Shown here: piece after piece, positions 53,390 through 62,788 of the stretch
How positions within the stretch are numbered: the stretch's first letter is position 1
How the letters are laid out: every line of letters starts with the position of its first letter
From: Lentilactobacillus curieae
Lineage (GTDB): Bacteria; Bacillota; Bacilli; Lactobacillales; Lactobacillaceae
Assembly: GCF_000785105.2 (NCBI RefSeq)
Contig: NZ_CP018906.1
Location: forward strand, 62,001-126,000
Direction: 5' to 3'
Length of the DNA stretch: 64,000 nt
Made by a program: the position numbers and the translations under genes
Notes under the pieces: model-generated
What the model saw: only the letters and a program-made list of their open reading frames with translations
Databases searched by the model: none
What the model was told of the DNA's origin: nothing

Positions 53390-54307
53390 TTATTTGTATT
53401 CAGCCGCAATCTCTTTACTGGTAGGGATTGAAGGCAATGCACCAGCTCTTTGAACGGTAATTGATGATGCTTTTTGTGCGTAGACAAGTGCCTCCTCAAC
53501 GTTAGATAAATCTTTTTTCACTTGGGAGCTAAATGCACCTATAAATGTATCACCTGCCGCAGTCGTGTCAACCGCCTTAACCTTAAATGCCTTTACAAAC
53601 CCACTATCATTCTTAGTATGATAGTATGCTCCACGATCACCCACAGTAATTATCAAATTATCAATTCCCATTTCGGAGAACTTGGCAGCATTATTATCCA
53701 TCGATTCCGTGTCGTCAACAGTGATCCCAGTCAAAGTAGCGCTCTCAGTTTCGTTTGGAACAATCAAATCTGTAACTGCTAATAGACCATCAATTATTTC
53801 AGTGGCAGGAGCTGGGTTCAAAATCGTAGTAACTCCATGTTTCTTAGCAATTTCAAAAGCCCGAAGAGTAACATCTTGAGGTGTCTCAAATTGAGATATC
53901 AAAATATCTGCACTTGCAATTAAATCTTCACATTCGTCTGCCATTGCTGGTTTGATTGCTTGGTTAGCTCCACCATAGACCATAATACAGTTTTGGCCAG
54001 CTTCGTCTAATAGGATAACTGCAGATCCAGTTCCCTCTTCAGAGATTTTACTAATCTTTTCGGTATTGATTCCATTGCCATTTAAAGCATCAACCATGAA
54101 ACCACCTAATTCATCATCACCAACCTGACCAATAAAACTGGTATCGGCACCCGAACGAACAGCAGCAACTGCTTGATTAGCTCCCTTACCACCAGCTGAA
54201 TTTGTCTTAGACTGCGCACTGATTGTTTCCCCTGGTTTTGGCATCTGTGCGATATGCAGAGTTGTATCAACATTTAAACTTCCTAAAACAACCACTTTAT
54301 TTGTCAT
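53390..54307 (-). CDS. rbsK: Ribokinase
   Basis: A 305-residue PfkB-family kinase that phosphorylates ribose. GGKGANQAVAA (39-49) is the first signature and DTTAAGDTFIGAF (about 247-259), with the catalytic aspartate in GD, the second. It lies downstream of a LacI-type regulator on the same strand, 95 nt apart, with its own candidate promoter. No ribose transporter or rbsD gene is next to it. Confidence 0.94.
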   Translation of the reverse strand: MTNKVVVLGSLNVDTTLHIAQMPKPGETISAQSKTNSAGGKGANQAVAAVRSGADTSFIGQVGDDELGGFMVDALNGNGINTEKISKISEEGTGSAVILLDEAGQNCIMVYGGANQAIKPAMADECEDLIASADILISQFETPQDVTLRAFEIAKKHGVTTILNPAPATEIIDGLLAVTDLIVPNETESATLTGITVDDTESMDNNAAKFSEMGIDNLIITVGDRGAYYHTKNDSGFVKAFKVKAVDTTAAGDTFIGAFSSQVKKDLSNVEEALVYAQKASSITVQRAGALPSIPTSKEIAAEYK

Positions 54308-54323
54308 TGTTAGTTACCCCTTA

Positions 54324-54337
54324 TTTAACGTTTTAAA
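54324..54337. promoter_or_regulatory. Candidate RbsR operator before rbsK
   Basis: TTTAACGTTTTAAA is a near-palindrome centred on AACGTT, the typical core of LacI-family sites. It lies between the rbsK -10 and its start codon, where binding would block transcription. Only one site is seen. Confidence 0.35.
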
Positions 54338-54362
54338 ATTGGATAAAACCTTTCACTAAAGA

Positions 54363-54391
54363 ATGGTACCAAAAACCCATCCCATTCACAA
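54363..54391 (-). promoter_or_regulatory. Candidate promoter of rbsK
   Basis: On the minus strand TTGTGA (54386-54391), 17 nt, TACCAT (54363-54368) with a TG extension. Confidence 0.4.
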
Positions 54392-54402
54392 GCTAAACGC
54401 GA

Positions 54403-55410
54403 TTAATTGATTTTCTTAACGCTGTCACGTTCAACTAATGACACCGGCAACGAAATCTTTTGATTTTCGATGCCCTCATTTTCAATTCTTTGAATGATCA
54501 GTTTTGCAGCATTAGTCCCCATTTCAAATGCAGGTTGATGCACAGTTGTTAGCTTAGGTGTGAAGTACTCACTTAAATCAATATCATCATAGCCCACAAT
54601 TGAGATATCGTCTGGAATGGAGAATCCAGACTCTTCTAAACCTCGATACAACCCAAATGCCATCTCATCATTGATGGCAAAGACTGCAGTTGGTTTATTA
54701 GCAATCACCTGTTCAGTAGCCCCATATCCGCCGAGCTTAGTCAATTCAGCCTCAATAATCTGATCTTGGTTAATCGAAACATTGTTTGCTTTATATGTGT
54801 CTAAAAAGCCTTGTAAACGATCCTGAATGTTTCTGGTAGGTTTTACTGCAGTTACAATTGAAACACGCTTATGCCCGTTTTTTATCAAATATTCGGCTAG
54901 TAGCTGGCCACCATGGTAATTATCAACGTCAACCATGTCACCTTCATGGACGGGGGCCTGATCAATTAACATGTACGGAATCTGATTTTGGCTAAGCACA
55001 TTGTCAATGTAGCTCAAGTCAGACACTGCTGAAGCAATAATCATCCCATCAGCCGCTCTGCGCACAGATTCAAACAGGTAGCGAGATTCCATCTGTTCAT
55101 TATTGTTTGAACCGAAGATCAATGGTACATAATCCTGTTTAATTGACTCATCCTCGATTCCCCGTAAGAAACGACTAAAAAATGGGTTGTTGATATTGGG
55201 CACCAACACACCAATTGTTCTACCAGATTTTCTAATTAAGCTTTGCGCATTAAAGTCGGGGACGTATCCCAATTCGCGTTGAAGTGAATTGATTTTATCA
55301 ATGGTTTTTTGGCTAAACCGTTGATCTTTACCGTTCAAAATTTGGGAAACGGTAGTTACGGACACTCCCGCAATTTTTGCTAAATCAGTAATTGTCACTT
55401 TTTTAGTCAT
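54403..55410 (-). CDS. rbsR: LacI family transcriptional regulator, probably RbsR
   Basis: A 335-residue repressor. The N-terminal helix-turn-helix (VTITDLAKIAGVSVTTVSQILNG, about 4-26) is followed by a periplasmic-binding-like sensor domain (GRTIGVLVPNINNPFFSRFLRGIE onwards). I start at the ATG at 55410, where LacI proteins begin; the open frame before it overlaps the upstream terminator. Adjacency to rbsK suggests ribose sensing; the name is an inference from context. Confidence 0.88.
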   Translation of the reverse strand: MTKKVTITDLAKIAGVSVTTVSQILNGKDQRFSQKTIDKINSLQRELGYVPDFNAQSLIRKSGRTIGVLVPNINNPFFSRFLRGIEDESIKQDYVPLIFGSNNNEQMESRYLFESVRRAADGMIIASAVSDLSYIDNVLSQNQIPYMLIDQAPVHEGDMVDVDNYHGGQLLAEYLIKNGHKRVSIVTAVKPTRNIQDRLQGFLDTYKANNVSINQDQIIEAELTKLGGYGATEQVIANKPTAVFAINDEMAFGLYRGLEESGFSIPDDISIVGYDDIDLSEYFTPKLTTVHQPAFEMGTNAAKLIIQRIENEGIENQKISLPVSLVERDSVKKIN

Positions 55411-55453
55411 TGCTTTTATCCATCCAATCATTCTTATTAATTCGATTATAACA

Positions 55454-55496
55454 AATAAAAGCACTAAACGGAGTAAGTCCATTTAATGCTTTTATT
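55454..55496 (-). terminator. Terminator of the aldo/keto reductase gene
   Basis: AATAAAAGCA and TGCTTTTATT with further inner pairs (TTTA, GGA/TCC) form a long hairpin. The T tract after it is short. Confidence 0.6.
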
Positions 55497-55504
55497 CAAA
55501 GTAA

Positions 55505-56500
55505 CTATTTTTTCAAGATTGAGTCAATTTGATCAAGCTCATCTTGGGTAAATTCTAGATTATCTAATGCTTTCAAGTTGTCCATCAAATGGTTAACCTT
55601 TGAAGCACCAGTTACAATGCTAGCAACAACATCGTCATGAAGTAACCATGCAATGCTCATTTGGGCTAAAGTTTGGTTACGGTTCTTAGCTAAATCGTTA
55701 AGTTGGTTAAGCTTAGAAACTAATTCGTCCTTACCATTATCGACAACAAAGTTATTACTCCAGTGAAGTTTAACGTCATCTGGAATTCCATTCAGGTACT
55801 TGTCAGTCAATAATCCTTCAGCAAGAGGTCCGTATGAAACTAACGCCTTGTTGTTGTCCTTGAGAACATCAAGCAGGCCATCATCCTCAACCTCACGGTT
55901 CAACATATTATACGAAGCTTGGTTAACCACGAATGGTGTGTGTAATTCTTTAAAGTACTTGATAATTTCTGCAGTTTGCTTTGCATCATAGTTTGAAATT
56001 CCAACGTATAGAGCTTTACCGGACCTAACGATGTCATTTAAGGCATCTGCGGTTTCAGCAAGGTTAGTGTTTGGATCAAACCTATGACTGTAGTAAATAT
56101 CCACGTAGTCTAATCCCATTCGTTCCAGACTGCCATCAATAGCATTGATAAGCGTCTTTCTTGATGAGAAGTTACCATAAGGTCCTGGCCACATGTTGAA
56201 TCCTGCTTTTGTAGTAATAACCAATTCATCACGGTAAGGTTTGAAGTTTGCCTTATACACATCACCAAACATTCTTTCTGCCGCACCTGAACCTGGTCCA
56301 TAGTTATAAGCTAAATCAAAGCTAAAGATTCCTTTGTCAAAAGCCTCTAACATTACTTTTTCACTATCGCCATAGTTTGCGTCATCCCCAAAACTATGCC
56401 ACATTCCAAACGAGAGGGCGGGTAATTGTAATCCAGAATCCCCTGCTCTTCTAACCGCCATCTTGTCATACCGATCTTCACTTGCTTTATACATGTACAT
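55505..56500 (-). CDS. Aldo/keto reductase, YghZ/glyceraldehyde-3-phosphate reductase type
   Basis: A 331-residue NADP-dependent oxidoreductase with a TIM barrel. The catalytic residues are in FDLAYNYGPGSGAAERMFG (Asp, Tyr), ITTKAGFNMWPGPYGN (Lys) and DIYYSHRFDP (His). The GPYG segment and overall layout match AKR14-like enzymes such as YghZ, which reduce aldehydes including L-glyceraldehyde 3-phosphate. The substrate here is not known. GAAAGGTGA lies upstream of the ATG. Confidence 0.9.
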   Translation of the reverse strand: MYMYKASEDRYDKMAVRRAGDSGLQLPALSFGMWHSFGDDANYGDSEKVMLEAFDKGIFSFDLAYNYGPGSGAAERMFGDVYKANFKPYRDELVITTKAGFNMWPGPYGNFSSRKTLINAIDGSLERMGLDYVDIYYSHRFDPNTNLAETADALNDIVRSGKALYVGISNYDAKQTAEIIKYFKELHTPFVVNQASYNMLNREVEDDGLLDVLKDNNKALVSYGPLAEGLLTDKYLNGIPDDVKLHWSNNFVVDNGKDELVSKLNQLNDLAKNRNQTLAQMSIAWLLHDDVVASIVTGASKVNHLMDNLKALDNLEFTQDELDQIDSILKK

Positions 56501-56524: not shown

Positions 56525-57484
56525 TTATCTACCAAATAATTTACCAACTGATTGTTGGTTATGAATCAAGTTGATTGCTTCCCCAAATAGCTTATCAACA
56601 GATACCAATTCTAATTTATCAAACTTATGCTCATCACTAAGTTTAATTGAATCAGTAACGATAACGTTTTTAATTGGTGCTTCTTCAAGCCGTTTAACAG
56701 CATCCCCTGAGAAGATTGCGTGAGTGGCTACTGCATACACTTCACTTGCTCCAGCCTTTTTCAAAGTTTCTGAAGCAATCTGTGTCTTAATAGCAGTATC
56801 AATCATGTCATCGACAACAACTGCCCGTTTTCCTTCAACGTCACCAATTACAGACTCTGGAATCGTATTTGCGTCTTCCGGTGAGCGGTTATCAATGATT
56901 GCAATTGGCGCATCGAGTAACTCAGCGAATGTTCTTGCCCGTGACACACTTGCATGGTCAGGTGAAATAATTACTAAATCATCCTTACCGTGTTTGCTTT
57001 CAAAGAATTTTGCAAGCAACCTAGCAGCACGTAAGTGGTCTACGGGAATGTCAAAGAATCCTTGAATTTGGTCAGCGTGTAGATCAAGGGTAACCACCCT
57101 GTCAACGCCGTCCATTTCCAAGAATGAGGATAATAATTTTGCGGTAATTGGTTCACGAGAACGTGCCTTCCGATCAGCACGTGAATAGCCGTAGTACGGA
57201 ATTACCACGTTGATTGAACCTGCCGAAGCACGCCTTAGGGCATCAACCATAATCAGCAACTCCATCAAATTGGTGTTAACTGGATCAGAAATTGATTGAA
57301 TTACGTACACTTCAGTTCCACGAATACTCTCATCAACACTGATTTTGATTTCGTCGTCACTGAACTTTTTGGTAGTGGCTTTGCCCAATGGCACACCAAC
57401 TGCCTTGCTAATTTTTTCAGCTAGCTCACGGTTTGAGTTAAGGGAAAATAATTTAATATTTGGTCGAGTATTATCGTCCGTCAT
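56525..57484 (-). CDS. Divergent ribose-phosphate pyrophosphokinase paralogue
   Basis: A 319-residue protein with the full two-domain PRPP synthase fold. The ATP region SRADRKARSREPITAK (101-116) and DLHADQIQGFF are conserved. The ribose-phosphate loop, however, reads DDMIDTAIKT (225-234) instead of DDIIDTAGT; DHAS (176-179) stands for DHGG, and the IIDKRRP of B. subtilis is IIDNRSP (196-202). The last two changes remove residues that match Lys197 and Arg199, needed for catalysis in B. subtilis Prs. It may be inactive or regulatory. GGAGGC precedes the ATG. Confidence 0.88.
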   Translation of the reverse strand: MTDDNTRPNIKLFSLNSNRELAEKISKAVGVPLGKATTKKFSDDEIKISVDESIRGTEVYVIQSISDPVNTNLMELLIMVDALRRASAGSINVVIPYYGYSRADRKARSREPITAKLLSSFLEMDGVDRVVTLDLHADQIQGFFDIPVDHLRAARLLAKFFESKHGKDDLVIISPDHASVSRARTFAELLDAPIAIIDNRSPEDANTIPESVIGDVEGKRAVVVDDMIDTAIKTQIASETLKKAGASEVYAVATHAIFSGDAVKRLEEAPIKNVIVTDSIKLSDEHKFDKLELVSVDKLFGEAINLIHNQQSVGKLFGR

Positions 57485-57555
57485 GATTGCCTCCAGGGGT
57501 TGTTGTTTATAAAAATCATAACATAAAAATTAATAAATTTTGAGTCTTGAAATCT

Positions 57556-60018
57556 TTATTTGGCCTCAATAAAATCGGTTGGTTTTATTTTTTGCATGCC
57601 AATCATTGGATCAACTACGTTTTCTTGAATCATTTTCATAGTTAAAATTCCGTCATTTTGAGGCTCTTGCTCTTCATTTTCTGTGTCGGTAGCGATCTCA
57701 GTGCTATTTGCGCTAATTATTTCAGTGTCAACTTTTTCCTCAGTCGGTGCCTCATTGCCAGAAATTACCGACCGTAGTCGTTCGACTAAACATGTTTTCC
57801 GGTTCGCAGACACCGTGCTAACACACTGTTGGTAGGCAGATTGTTCACCCACCATGATCAAAAAGTCACTTGCTCTAGTGACAGCTGTATATAACAAATT
57901 TCTTTGCAACATTCTGCTGAACTGACGAACCAGCGGCAAAATTACCATCTTAAATTCGCTACCCTGCGCTTTATGGATTGAAGTACAGTAAGCTAGCGTA
58001 AATTGTAACCACTCATTCTTTTGATAAGTAACTTCAACTTCATCGTAATCAATCGTAATTTGTGATGGTGAATCCTCATCTTTATTCTGTTTCATCGAAA
58101 CGATTATCCCAATGTCACCATTGAAAACATTCTTTTCTGGATTGTTCTCCAGCTGCAAAACCTTATCACCAATTCTGTAAGTATGCTGCCGAATGGTCAC
58201 CGACTTATTCGCATTTGGACTTTGCCATACATCTTGAATAGTGTCGTTCAACTTATCGATGCCTGCCCTACCGCGATACATCGGTGCGAGAACCTGAACA
58301 TCCATTTTGCCAAATCCCTTATTCTTCGCGCGCTCAGTGACCTGTTGAACAACCGAAGCAATTTGATTCTCACCACAGGGAATAAATGACCGGTCACTCT
58401 GATTATTAGTAAAGTCAGTAGGTAACTGTCCTTGATGAATTTCGTGAGCCAGTGCAATGATTGATGAATGGGCATCTTGCCGATAAATCGTATCTAACTT
58501 CATGTACGGTACCGACTGCGAACTCAACAAATCATGGAACACTTGGCCAGGGCCGACAGATGGCAGTTGATCTTGATCCCCTACCAATACGACCTTCATG
58601 TGATTTGGAATTACACTAACTAACATCTTAAATAAGAATGTATCAACCATCGACATCTCGTCTATAATCAACAGTTCGCCATCAATATCTTTAGTTGCAG
58701 ACGCATTTTCGCTGTCTGAGCGATTCAATCCAAGTAACCTATGAATGGTGCTGGCAGGCAATCCAGTGCTATCAGTCATATGTTTAGCAGCTCGACCGGT
58801 AGGTGCCGCTAAAATCACTGGAAACGGCTTATCCTTGTACTGATTAATATCCATCGAATAATCATTTAGCTCACAAAAGGTGTTCACAATTCCGTTAATA
58901 ATTGTGGTTTTTCCAGTACCTGGTCCCCCTGTTAATAAGAAAACTGGAGACTTAATTGCATCTGTGATTGCATTGATTTGTGACTGATCATAATCAATCT
59001 GGTACTTTCTTTCAACTTTTCTAAGTTGCTTCTCGATTTGGGCATCCGTAAATGAAACCTCATCATTATTTTCAACAATTCGATTAAGGTGCTCAGCAAT
59101 TTGAAACTCGGCTCGATACAAATTGGCCGGAAAAATCTTGTCATTTTCACCAATTACTTGGTTGCTTTTCGCAAGTTCAATCAGGCCATTAGCAATTTTA
59201 TCAGCGCCAATCTGGCCTTGACCGCCAGACTCTAGCAACCGTGTCGTTTCTTGTAATACCGGCCCAGTAGTGGTGTAAGTATCACCATTTTTGACACAGA
59301 GCTGATCGATTGAATACATTAACCCAGTAGCGATTCGCTGTGGAGAATCGATTTGAAACCCATTTTGCAAAGCGATTGCGTCTGCTTTTTTGAACCCAAT
59401 CGACGGAATGTCAGTCACTAACTTATATGGGTTTTCAGAAATAATTGAAAGTGCATCCCCGTGATATTTCTCATAAATCACAGAACTTAACTGATTTGAA
59501 AAGCCGTAACTATTTAAGCCAATGATAATATTTTCAAGATTATCACCTAATTCCAAATTTTCAGCAATCACTTTTTTAAGTTTGGCCTTTAACCCGACTT
59601 TGTCCAGAACACTTGGATCTCGGTCAATCTTATTCAGAGCATCGGTGCCCAAAATATCCACAATCTTTTCAGCGGTCTTTTCACCAACTCCAGGAAATTT
59701 GTCACCAGATAGGTATTTAATAACCCCTCCACGCGTTGTTTTTGCCAAATTGGAGTAGTTATCTGCTTGAAACTGCTGACCATATTTAGGGTGGTTAACT
59801 ACTCTACCAGTAAAATGGTAGGCATTATCTTCAAGTAAGTCACCGAAATTTCCAGTCACAACGACCTCATCATCAGGAAGGGAAACGTTGGTGTTGGTAA
59901 CCTGAATTAATACCACCTTATAAAAACTATCCTCACTAGCAAAAAAGACGGCCTTTAATTGCCCGTCAACAAACTTTTCTTCATTTGGATTATCAAATAG
60001 ATCTAATGATTCAGCCAA
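57556..60018 (-). CDS. recD2: RecD-like DNA helicase RecD2
   Basis: An 820-residue 5'-3' superfamily 1 helicase. The N-terminal part holds an OB-like region and helix-hairpin-helix motifs (SGDKFPGVGEKTAEKIVDILG); the helicase part has Walker A GGPGTGKTT, LLIIDEMSMVD (motif II), VLVGDQDQLPSVGPG (motif III) and YCTSIHKAQGSEF (motif V/VI). It lacks RecB and RecC partners, as RecD2 does, and takes part in repair and replication-fork maintenance. The acidic tail of about 60 residues is less conserved. It follows the TPR gene by 18 nt. Confidence 0.95.
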   Translation of the reverse strand: MAESLDLFDNPNEEKFVDGQLKAVFFASEDSFYKVVLIQVTNTNVSLPDDEVVVTGNFGDLLEDNAYHFTGRVVNHPKYGQQFQADNYSNLAKTTRGGVIKYLSGDKFPGVGEKTAEKIVDILGTDALNKIDRDPSVLDKVGLKAKLKKVIAENLELGDNLENIIIGLNSYGFSNQLSSVIYEKYHGDALSIISENPYKLVTDIPSIGFKKADAIALQNGFQIDSPQRIATGLMYSIDQLCVKNGDTYTTTGPVLQETTRLLESGGQGQIGADKIANGLIELAKSNQVIGENDKIFPANLYRAEFQIAEHLNRIVENNDEVSFTDAQIEKQLRKVERKYQIDYDQSQINAITDAIKSPVFLLTGGPGTGKTTIINGIVNTFCELNDYSMDINQYKDKPFPVILAAPTGRAAKHMTDSTGLPASTIHRLLGLNRSDSENASATKDIDGELLIIDEMSMVDTFLFKMLVSVIPNHMKVVLVGDQDQLPSVGPGQVFHDLLSSQSVPYMKLDTIYRQDAHSSIIALAHEIHQGQLPTDFTNNQSDRSFIPCGENQIASVVQQVTERAKNKGFGKMDVQVLAPMYRGRAGIDKLNDTIQDVWQSPNANKSVTIRQHTYRIGDKVLQLENNPEKNVFNGDIGIIVSMKQNKDEDSPSQITIDYDEVEVTYQKNEWLQFTLAYCTSIHKAQGSEFKMVILPLVRQFSRMLQRNLLYTAVTRASDFLIMVGEQSAYQQCVSTVSANRKTCLVERLRSVISGNEAPTEEKVDTEIISANSTEIATDTENEEQEPQNDGILTMKMIQENVVDPMIGMQKIKPTDFIEAK

Positions 60019-61594: not shown

Positions 61595-62788
<1,194 letters not shown>

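Follow-up and report, generated by a model that had tools for sequence, protein, structure and literature searches.

The prs2 gene of the window (the whole stretch of 64,000 nucleotides analysed here, from a Lentilactobacillus genome of 2.10 Mb in a single contig) almost certainly encodes, to judge from its residues, a non-catalytic paralogue of PRPP synthase that is conserved in the genus and in much of the order Lactobacillales. PRPP synthase feeds the synthesis of purines, pyrimidines, NAD, histidine and tryptophan. The features concerned are the following, with canonical residues numbered on the E. coli Prs chain aligned to Prs2:

56525-57484, minus strand: prs2, putative non-catalytic PRPP synthase paralogue, intact open reading frame of 319 aa (Pfam, AF2 and PDB match)
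57350-57364, minus strand: FLAG/ATP motif FSDDE, residues 41-45, predicted half-site lent to the neighbouring subunit; F35, D37 and E39 kept
57167-57181, minus strand: RF-loop motif RADRK, residues 102-106; R96 and R99 kept, Q97 changed to A
56948-56959, minus strand: pyrophosphate loop DHAS, residues 176-179; D170 kept, G172 and G173 changed
56879-56899, minus strand: catalytic flexible loop IIDNRSP, residues 196-202; K194 changed to N, R196 to S
56786-56800, minus strand: ribose-5-phosphate loop DTAIK in place of DTAGT, residues 229-233; G227 changed to I, T228 to K
57490-57494, minus strand: GGAGG, resembling a ribosome-binding site, just 5' of the prs2 ATG (from the sequence)
57556-60018, minus strand: recD2 helicase gene, immediately upstream of prs2 (Pfam HHH_RecD2, OB_YrrC)
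61595-62734, minus strand: mnmA (tRNA_Me_trans, Pfam), in the same conserved cluster
55505-56500, minus strand: aldo/keto reductase gene, downstream of prs2 (Pfam PF00248)
53390-55482, minus strand: ribokinase and RbsR-type repressor genes, after the aldo/keto reductase gene (TIGR02152, NF047341)

The reading frame of prs2 is intact and opens with ATG; it runs on the minus strand, which the original prediction did not mention, and reading the plus strand over the same interval yields 24 stops. Its product has the class I PRPP synthase fold with its domains present (Pribosyltran_N, Pribosyl_synth and Pribosyltran), and searches with Pfam at E values up to 1e-5 gave no added DNA-binding or signalling domain. 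The AF2 prediction, made from a 41-row alignment, reached a mean pLDDT of 89.2 and a pTM of 0.87; confidence was low chiefly at the N-terminus and in two blocks, 101-110 and 201-210, that contain the two flexible loops, and the top PDB match found by Foldseek was B. subtilis Prs (1dkr_B, TM 0.90, 55% identity). The NCBIfam equivalog NF002686 scored the protein at 382.3 bits, under the cut-off of 506, and NCBIfam subfamily models still name it ribose-phosphate diphosphokinase.

Examination of the active site located the substitutions in loops that the original prediction, made from the letters of the window, had already pointed out: DHAS, IIDNRSP and DTAIK lie exactly where it placed them, and the residues matching Lys197 and Arg199 of B. 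subtilis Prs, which according to a published study reportedly matter for catalysis, are both gone, being N199 and S201 in Prs2. Aligned to the E. coli chain, K194 corresponds to N199, R196 to S201, G227 to I232 and T228 to K233, and further substitutions are Q97 to A103 and N200 to A205, while F35, D37, E39, R96, R99, H131, D170, D220, D221, D224 and T225 are kept (we take E39, Q97 and G227 to be site residues of PRPP synthase). The original prediction did not list Q97A, the loss of N200, G44D or S314G, so that its statement that the ATP-site signature is kept stands for the most part but not entirely. An active class I PRPP synthase is recognised by its catalytic Lys194 and Arg196 and by DT(A/G)GT in the ribose-5-phosphate loop; Prs2 has N199 and S201 at the former positions and DTAIK at the latter. 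There is no insertion in its catalytic flexible loop relative to B. subtilis and E. coli Prs. With the Lys and Arg of the catalytic loop and the loop for the 5'-phosphate of ribose-5-phosphate changed, Prs2 would be unable to run the reaction. The ligand contacts used here come from the available extracts of PMC9232217, and the roles of K194, R196 and N200 from those of PMC12238573 and PMC4363470. Because human PRS1 carrying K194A or R196A, each singly, had no detectable activity in the extracts of PMC4363470, and both residues are gone here along with N200 and part of the ribose-5-phosphate loop, we strongly infer that Prs2 has lost activity, which gives strong support to the earlier suggestion that it may be inactive.

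A search of the genome for a second prs with intact loops, as had been proposed, found a canonical gene at G000:C1:1493180-1494109, directly after the glmU gene and far from prs2. This rules out prs2 as the sole prs of the genome. Its product, Prs1, is 59% identical to Prs2 and has SPDHGG, IIDKRRP and DTAGT all intact.

The occurrence of such copies was examined in 60 genomes of the same order, comprising 24 of the genus, 13 of other Lactobacillaceae and 23 of other families, and a copy was called degenerate when it failed any of K194, R196, G or S at 227, and T or S at 228. A canonical Prs was present in 60/60 genomes and a degenerate copy in 45/60, and none of these 45 genomes had the degenerate copy without the canonical one. 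The original prediction had described one paralogue; this paralogue is real but belongs to a lineage-wide group, found in 24/24 genus genomes, 10/13 other Lactobacillaceae and 11/23 genomes of other families (f2 1/4, f3 4/4, f4 3/3, f5 0/2, f6 0/1, f7 1/3, f8 2/3 plus one broken copy, f9 0/3). Since 15/60 genomes, one of which carries the broken copy, have no open degenerate copy, the gene is dispensable in some lineages. In the f8 genome with the broken copy (L224, G050:C8:43600-44700) the second prs is split in two pieces with a stop, and the copies of the other two f8 genomes are open.

Within the genus, K194N and T228K are each found in 24/24 orthologues, and G44D and S314G are likewise each fixed in 24/24 copies. 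Among the 45 degenerate copies K194 was lost in 40 and R196 in 44, with at least one of them lost in all. Two positions that play no part in the definition of the class behaved in the same way, G172 being lost in 45/45 degenerate copies and N200 in 44/45, and both being kept in 60/60 canonical ones. G173 is kept in 17/24 genus copies, the window's Prs2 not being among them. F35, D37 and E39 are all kept in 45/45 degenerate and 60/60 canonical copies. The pattern is not purely one of a lent half kept and an own half lost, because R96, R99, H131, D220 and D221, which are own-site residues, are also kept in 45/45. D170 is kept in 35/45 (24 of the genus, 8 of other Lactobacillaceae and 3 of other families), and outside Lactobacillaceae it is K in 8/11 degenerate copies and D224 is N in 8/11. 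Some degenerate copies may be less dead than others, to go by their residues: K194 is kept in 5/45, and L177 alone has R in the R196 column.

Analysis of selective constraints was limited by the saturation of most genus pairs at synonymous sites, and dN/dS was taken from pairs with dS<1. For Prs2 (5/276 pairs) the median was 0.014 and the maximum 0.05, and for Prs1 (4/276 pairs) the median was 0.008 and the maximum 0.023; the median dN was 0.158 in Prs2 against 0.088 in Prs1, about 1.8 times higher. Prs2 is under strong purifying selection, yet it evolves faster than Prs1. Chance can be excluded because K194N and T228K recur in 24/24 orthologues under such selection. The view that the changes represent divergence and not damage thus held, with 24/24 genus orthologues open and the altered residues fixed, and a pseudogene or a sequencing artefact is ruled out by these open orthologues together with the low dN/dS.

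To place the losses we took as canonical-invariant the 119 positions whose residue is shared by at least 97% of the 60 canonical copies, and as lost those kept in <10% of genus Prs2, with loop boundaries that we set ourselves. Thirteen of the 119 positions were lost in genus Prs2. Ten of these losses fall in active-site loops, which hold 47/119 positions (hypergeometric p about 0.005), and seven fall in the pyrophosphate, catalytic flexible or ribose-5-phosphate loops, which hold 23/119 (p about 0.003). Mean retention in the genus was 42% at the 7 canonical-invariant positions of the catalytic loop and 94% at the 72 outside the active-site loops, the latter being only a proxy for the dimer interfaces.

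As a control we turned to the class Bacilli outside this order, where 9 of 94 genomes have more than one full Prs copy and one (G127) gave no Prs match at E 1e-30. K194 and R196 were kept in 9/10 extra copies from these nine genomes, and this rules out degeneracy as a trait of any second Prs; the exception comes from G143, which has two extra copies. In six f12 genomes, G125 and G148 (L206-L212, L217) the second Prs keeps K194 and R196, its loops read SPDAGR, DTGTT or DTGGT, and its FLAG motif is altered (to FKSGE and the like); judging by these motifs it looks like a separate Prs class that is probably active. Sequences from single-copy genomes of other orders were also read (L219, L220, L222, L223, L225). 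Of these, L219 and L220 resemble the type just described, with KSRP, and in L222 (G140:C75:39300-40700) the only prs match of the genome is broken into two frames close to the catalytic loop (residues 191-199), which may be an assembly error. A degenerate Prs of Neobacillus kokaensis (L050:6016-6933, with APHNGG, LIDRRQP and DTART) lies among Bacillus-type sequences in the tree and looks like an independent loss. In the FCPU426 bacterium (L104) the catalytic KRR is intact and the ribose-5-phosphate loop is altered (DMIATGKS).

In the window prs2 belongs to a conserved cluster of mnmA, histidine phosphatase, TPR, recD2 and prs2 genes. The gap between recD2 and prs2 is 71 bases and the aldo/keto reductase gene starts 24 bases past the prs2 stop, a spacing with which co-transcription of these last two genes is possible. 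The ribokinase (TIGR02152, 358.6 bits, cut-off 299.65) and RbsR-type (NF047341, 465.6 bits, cut-off 382) genes are arranged alike in the three Lentilactobacillus loci whose gene order was examined, possibly a link to ribose-5-phosphate supply. The recD2 gene is the neighbour of prs2 in 11 of the 16 Lactobacillaceae loci examined for gene order, among them those of the very divergent copies L195-L197. In seven f3, f4 and Streptococcus loci, where neighbour Pfam names were checked on L038, L198 and L204, a class-V aminotransferase gene and then DUF1831 follow prs2, directly in six and with one gene between in L200; streptococcal-type loci also have CYTH, RelA_SpoT and NAD-kinase genes. The gene order of f4 is that of the named Streptococcus loci L060 and L064, and we would read f3 as Enterococcus and f8 as Listeria-like. 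In L204, L205, L060 and L064 the streptococcal-type prs2 stands beside CYTH with divergent RelA_SpoT and NAD-kinase genes near, and on the other side are the class-V aminotransferase gene, DUF1831 and a CoA_binding plus Put_DNA-bind_N gene that we label Rex-like.

We consider it probable that Prs2 is a pseudoenzyme subunit that forms mixed hexamers with Prs1 and tunes it. Prs2 is predicted to have the Prs fold, and most residues of its nucleotide site are kept, among them the FLAG residues with which it would complete the active site of a neighbouring subunit; entering mixed hexamers with the canonical enzyme, it would lend this half-site to Prs1 subunits and would set the number of working active sites and the ADP/phosphate response of the complex, and perhaps how far the complex stacks. 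We infer the mixed assembly, the regulatory effect and the sign of this effect. The earlier proposal that Prs2 regulates the true Prs much as the eukaryotic PRPSAPs do is plausible. It fits the co-occurrence in 45/45 genomes and the conservation both of the fold and of the lent half-site. Position R302 is R in 23/24 genus Prs1 and L in 24/24 genus Prs2; replacing it by Ala served to disrupt one type of E. coli filament, according to the extracts of PMC9232217, and R302L would fit a subunit that limits stacking. The other E. coli filament residues and those of allosteric site 2 say little, because they mostly differ in genus Prs1 as well as in Prs2.

The remodelled pocket could also serve other ends than the tuning of Prs1. 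Prs2 might be a homo-oligomeric sensor that binds a nucleotide, with or without a phosphorylated sugar, and passes a signal to a different partner, for instance the product of a neighbouring gene. The residue at T228 is K or R in 30/34 Lactobacillaceae copies (K in 24/24 of the genus, R in 6/10 others), which would mean positive constraint and not plain loss, and the gene neighbourhoods are conserved, with recD2 and mnmA in Lactobacillaceae, the class-V aminotransferase and DUF1831 in f3 and f4, and the ribokinase and RbsR-type genes following in the three Lentilactobacillus loci. Such a sensor seems unlikely, however, in a protein with no extra DNA-binding or signalling domain, and the neighbourhoods vary by family, 5/16 Lactobacillaceae loci being without the recD2 link. 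Alternatively the kept ATP site and metal aspartates might work with a new pocket on a changed reaction or substrate, a possibility that gains from the retention of R96, R99, H131, D220 and D221 throughout and of D170 in 35/45, and from the strong purifying selection on Prs2. The G227 pocket nevertheless varies by genus (F, I, V, N, T, S, K or R among others) and the K at D170 in 8/11 copies outside Lactobacillaceae would be unexpected for one conserved new chemistry, and we regard this possibility as quite unlikely.

That Prs2 still works as a PRPP synthase, perhaps a slow or differently regulated one, would agree with NF002686 and the subfamily models, which name such copies ribose-phosphate diphosphokinase. 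The inactivity of the human single mutants speaks against it, as does the fact that extra copies need not lose the Lys and Arg, given that most of those in other Bacilli keep both, and we hold it to be very improbable. Least credible of all is a decaying duplicate on its way to becoming a pseudogene: the broken second copy in G050 (f8) and the faster rate of amino acid replacement in Prs2 are what such decay would produce, but the gene is open throughout the genus and none of the five pairs that could be measured has a dN/dS above about 0.05. Of the readings considered, a non-catalytic subunit that tunes Prs1 is the most likely.

Whether the degenerate copies arose once in the distant past or several times is undecided from the sequences, owing to long branches. 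The trees were built from rows that we chose, without eukaryotic sequences; the 91-row tree included 8/24 genus genomes and 18/80 named loci, the 78-row tree dropped 13 rows with long branches or near-copies (among them the degenerate L050, L154, L160 and L177), and the 55-row tree dropped 23 further rows, including the degenerate L164. With the motif columns in (91 rows) two changes of state were needed, and with these columns out (78 rows) four. The AU test on the 78-row tree rejected neither a single degenerate clade (p-AU 0.441) nor a clade of Lactobacillaceae Prs1 and Prs2 (p-AU 0.435). The careful 55-row tree, with motif columns out, needed three changes and recovered one origin in 0% of 200 bootstrap trees; in it 15 Lactobacillaceae Prs2 rows lay on one side of a branch (bootstrap 100, SH-aLRT 99), five f4, f3 and f2 rows were together (100/100) and two f8 rows formed a third group (100/100). 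With the motif columns out, the window's Prs2 groups with other bacterial copies in a clade separate from the NF002686 type.

A wider proposal, which we put forward tentatively and at somewhat less than even probability, is that Lactobacillales have a bacterial PRPSAP-like system in which duplicates became regulatory subunits without catalysis, probably on more than one occasion (in Lactobacillaceae, in the Streptococcus/Enterococcus type and in the f8 family), and form complexes with Prs1 that would set the PRPP supply and perhaps cap filaments, in convergence with eukaryotes. A 2026 preprint on >35,000 PRPS sequences (PMC13252144, seen in extracts) gives 37 origins of pseudoenzymes in eukaryotes, states that the major prokaryotic classes have kept the universally conserved catalytic residues, and sets bacteria, which gave rise to new classes, against eukaryotes, which gave rise to pseudoenzymes. 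A conserved group of bacterial pseudoenzymes would break the contrast drawn in those extracts. Among the matches listed in open-licence literature there was no description of a bacterial PRPP-synthase pseudoenzyme and no functional study of a second prs copy. Words for prs are absent from PMC6560171 and PMC13328217, PMC5605880 names Prs in a pathway legend only, and PMC3886909 and PMC3627020 mention lmo0509 or prs-2. A pneumococcal proteome lists prs2 (SP_1095), which we equate with Prs2 by name, with 0 peptides in biofilm and 3 in planktonic cells (PMC3216281, extract), and a Listeria expression table lists lmo0509, matched by its description, as 'similar to phosphoribosyl pyrophosphate synthetase' (PMC2679221, extract). 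The prs1/prs2 pair would offer a simple two-gene system in which to study the tuning of Prs by a dead subunit. It would also follow that numerous database records called 'ribose-phosphate pyrophosphokinase 2' may not represent enzymes, which would matter for the metabolic models of food and clinical bacteria.

Compared with the class I Prs of B. subtilis (EC 2.7.6.1; 1DKR/1DKU), Prs2 has the same fold, length and FLAG region and the same R96, R99, H131, D170, D220 and D221, whereas Lys197/Arg199, N200, both glycines of the pyrophosphate loop and the GT of the ribose-5-phosphate loop are changed. Like Prs2, the second Prs of the f12 genomes, G125 and G148 accompanies a canonical or higher-scoring copy, but unlike Prs2 it keeps K194 and R196. 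The NF002686 (PRK02458) Prs2 of Streptococcus and Enterococcus resembles the window's Prs2 in being a degenerate second copy, in the same order, with a canonical prs alongside, and in f3 and f4 it differs in having K for D170 and N for D224. This ribose-phosphate diphosphokinase equivalog scored the only f4 and f3 copies tested above its cut-off (L168 639.5 bits, L175 508), both of which are without D170, K194 and R196; the degenerate L033, L177 and L169 fall under that cut-off and pass the subfamily model NF002320. According to extracts of PMC12238573 and the preprint PMC11476008, human PRPSAP2 has other residues at D171, K194, R196, N200 and T225, retains both the FLAG region and the dimer interfaces, and occurs in complexes with PRPS. 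Prs2 is like PRPSAP1 and PRPSAP2 of humans and the Prs1 type of yeast in accompanying an active Prs, in having lost K194, R196 and N200 and in keeping FLAG; it is unlike the PRPSAPs in being bacterial, in keeping D170 and T225 and in having no insertion in the catalytic loop.
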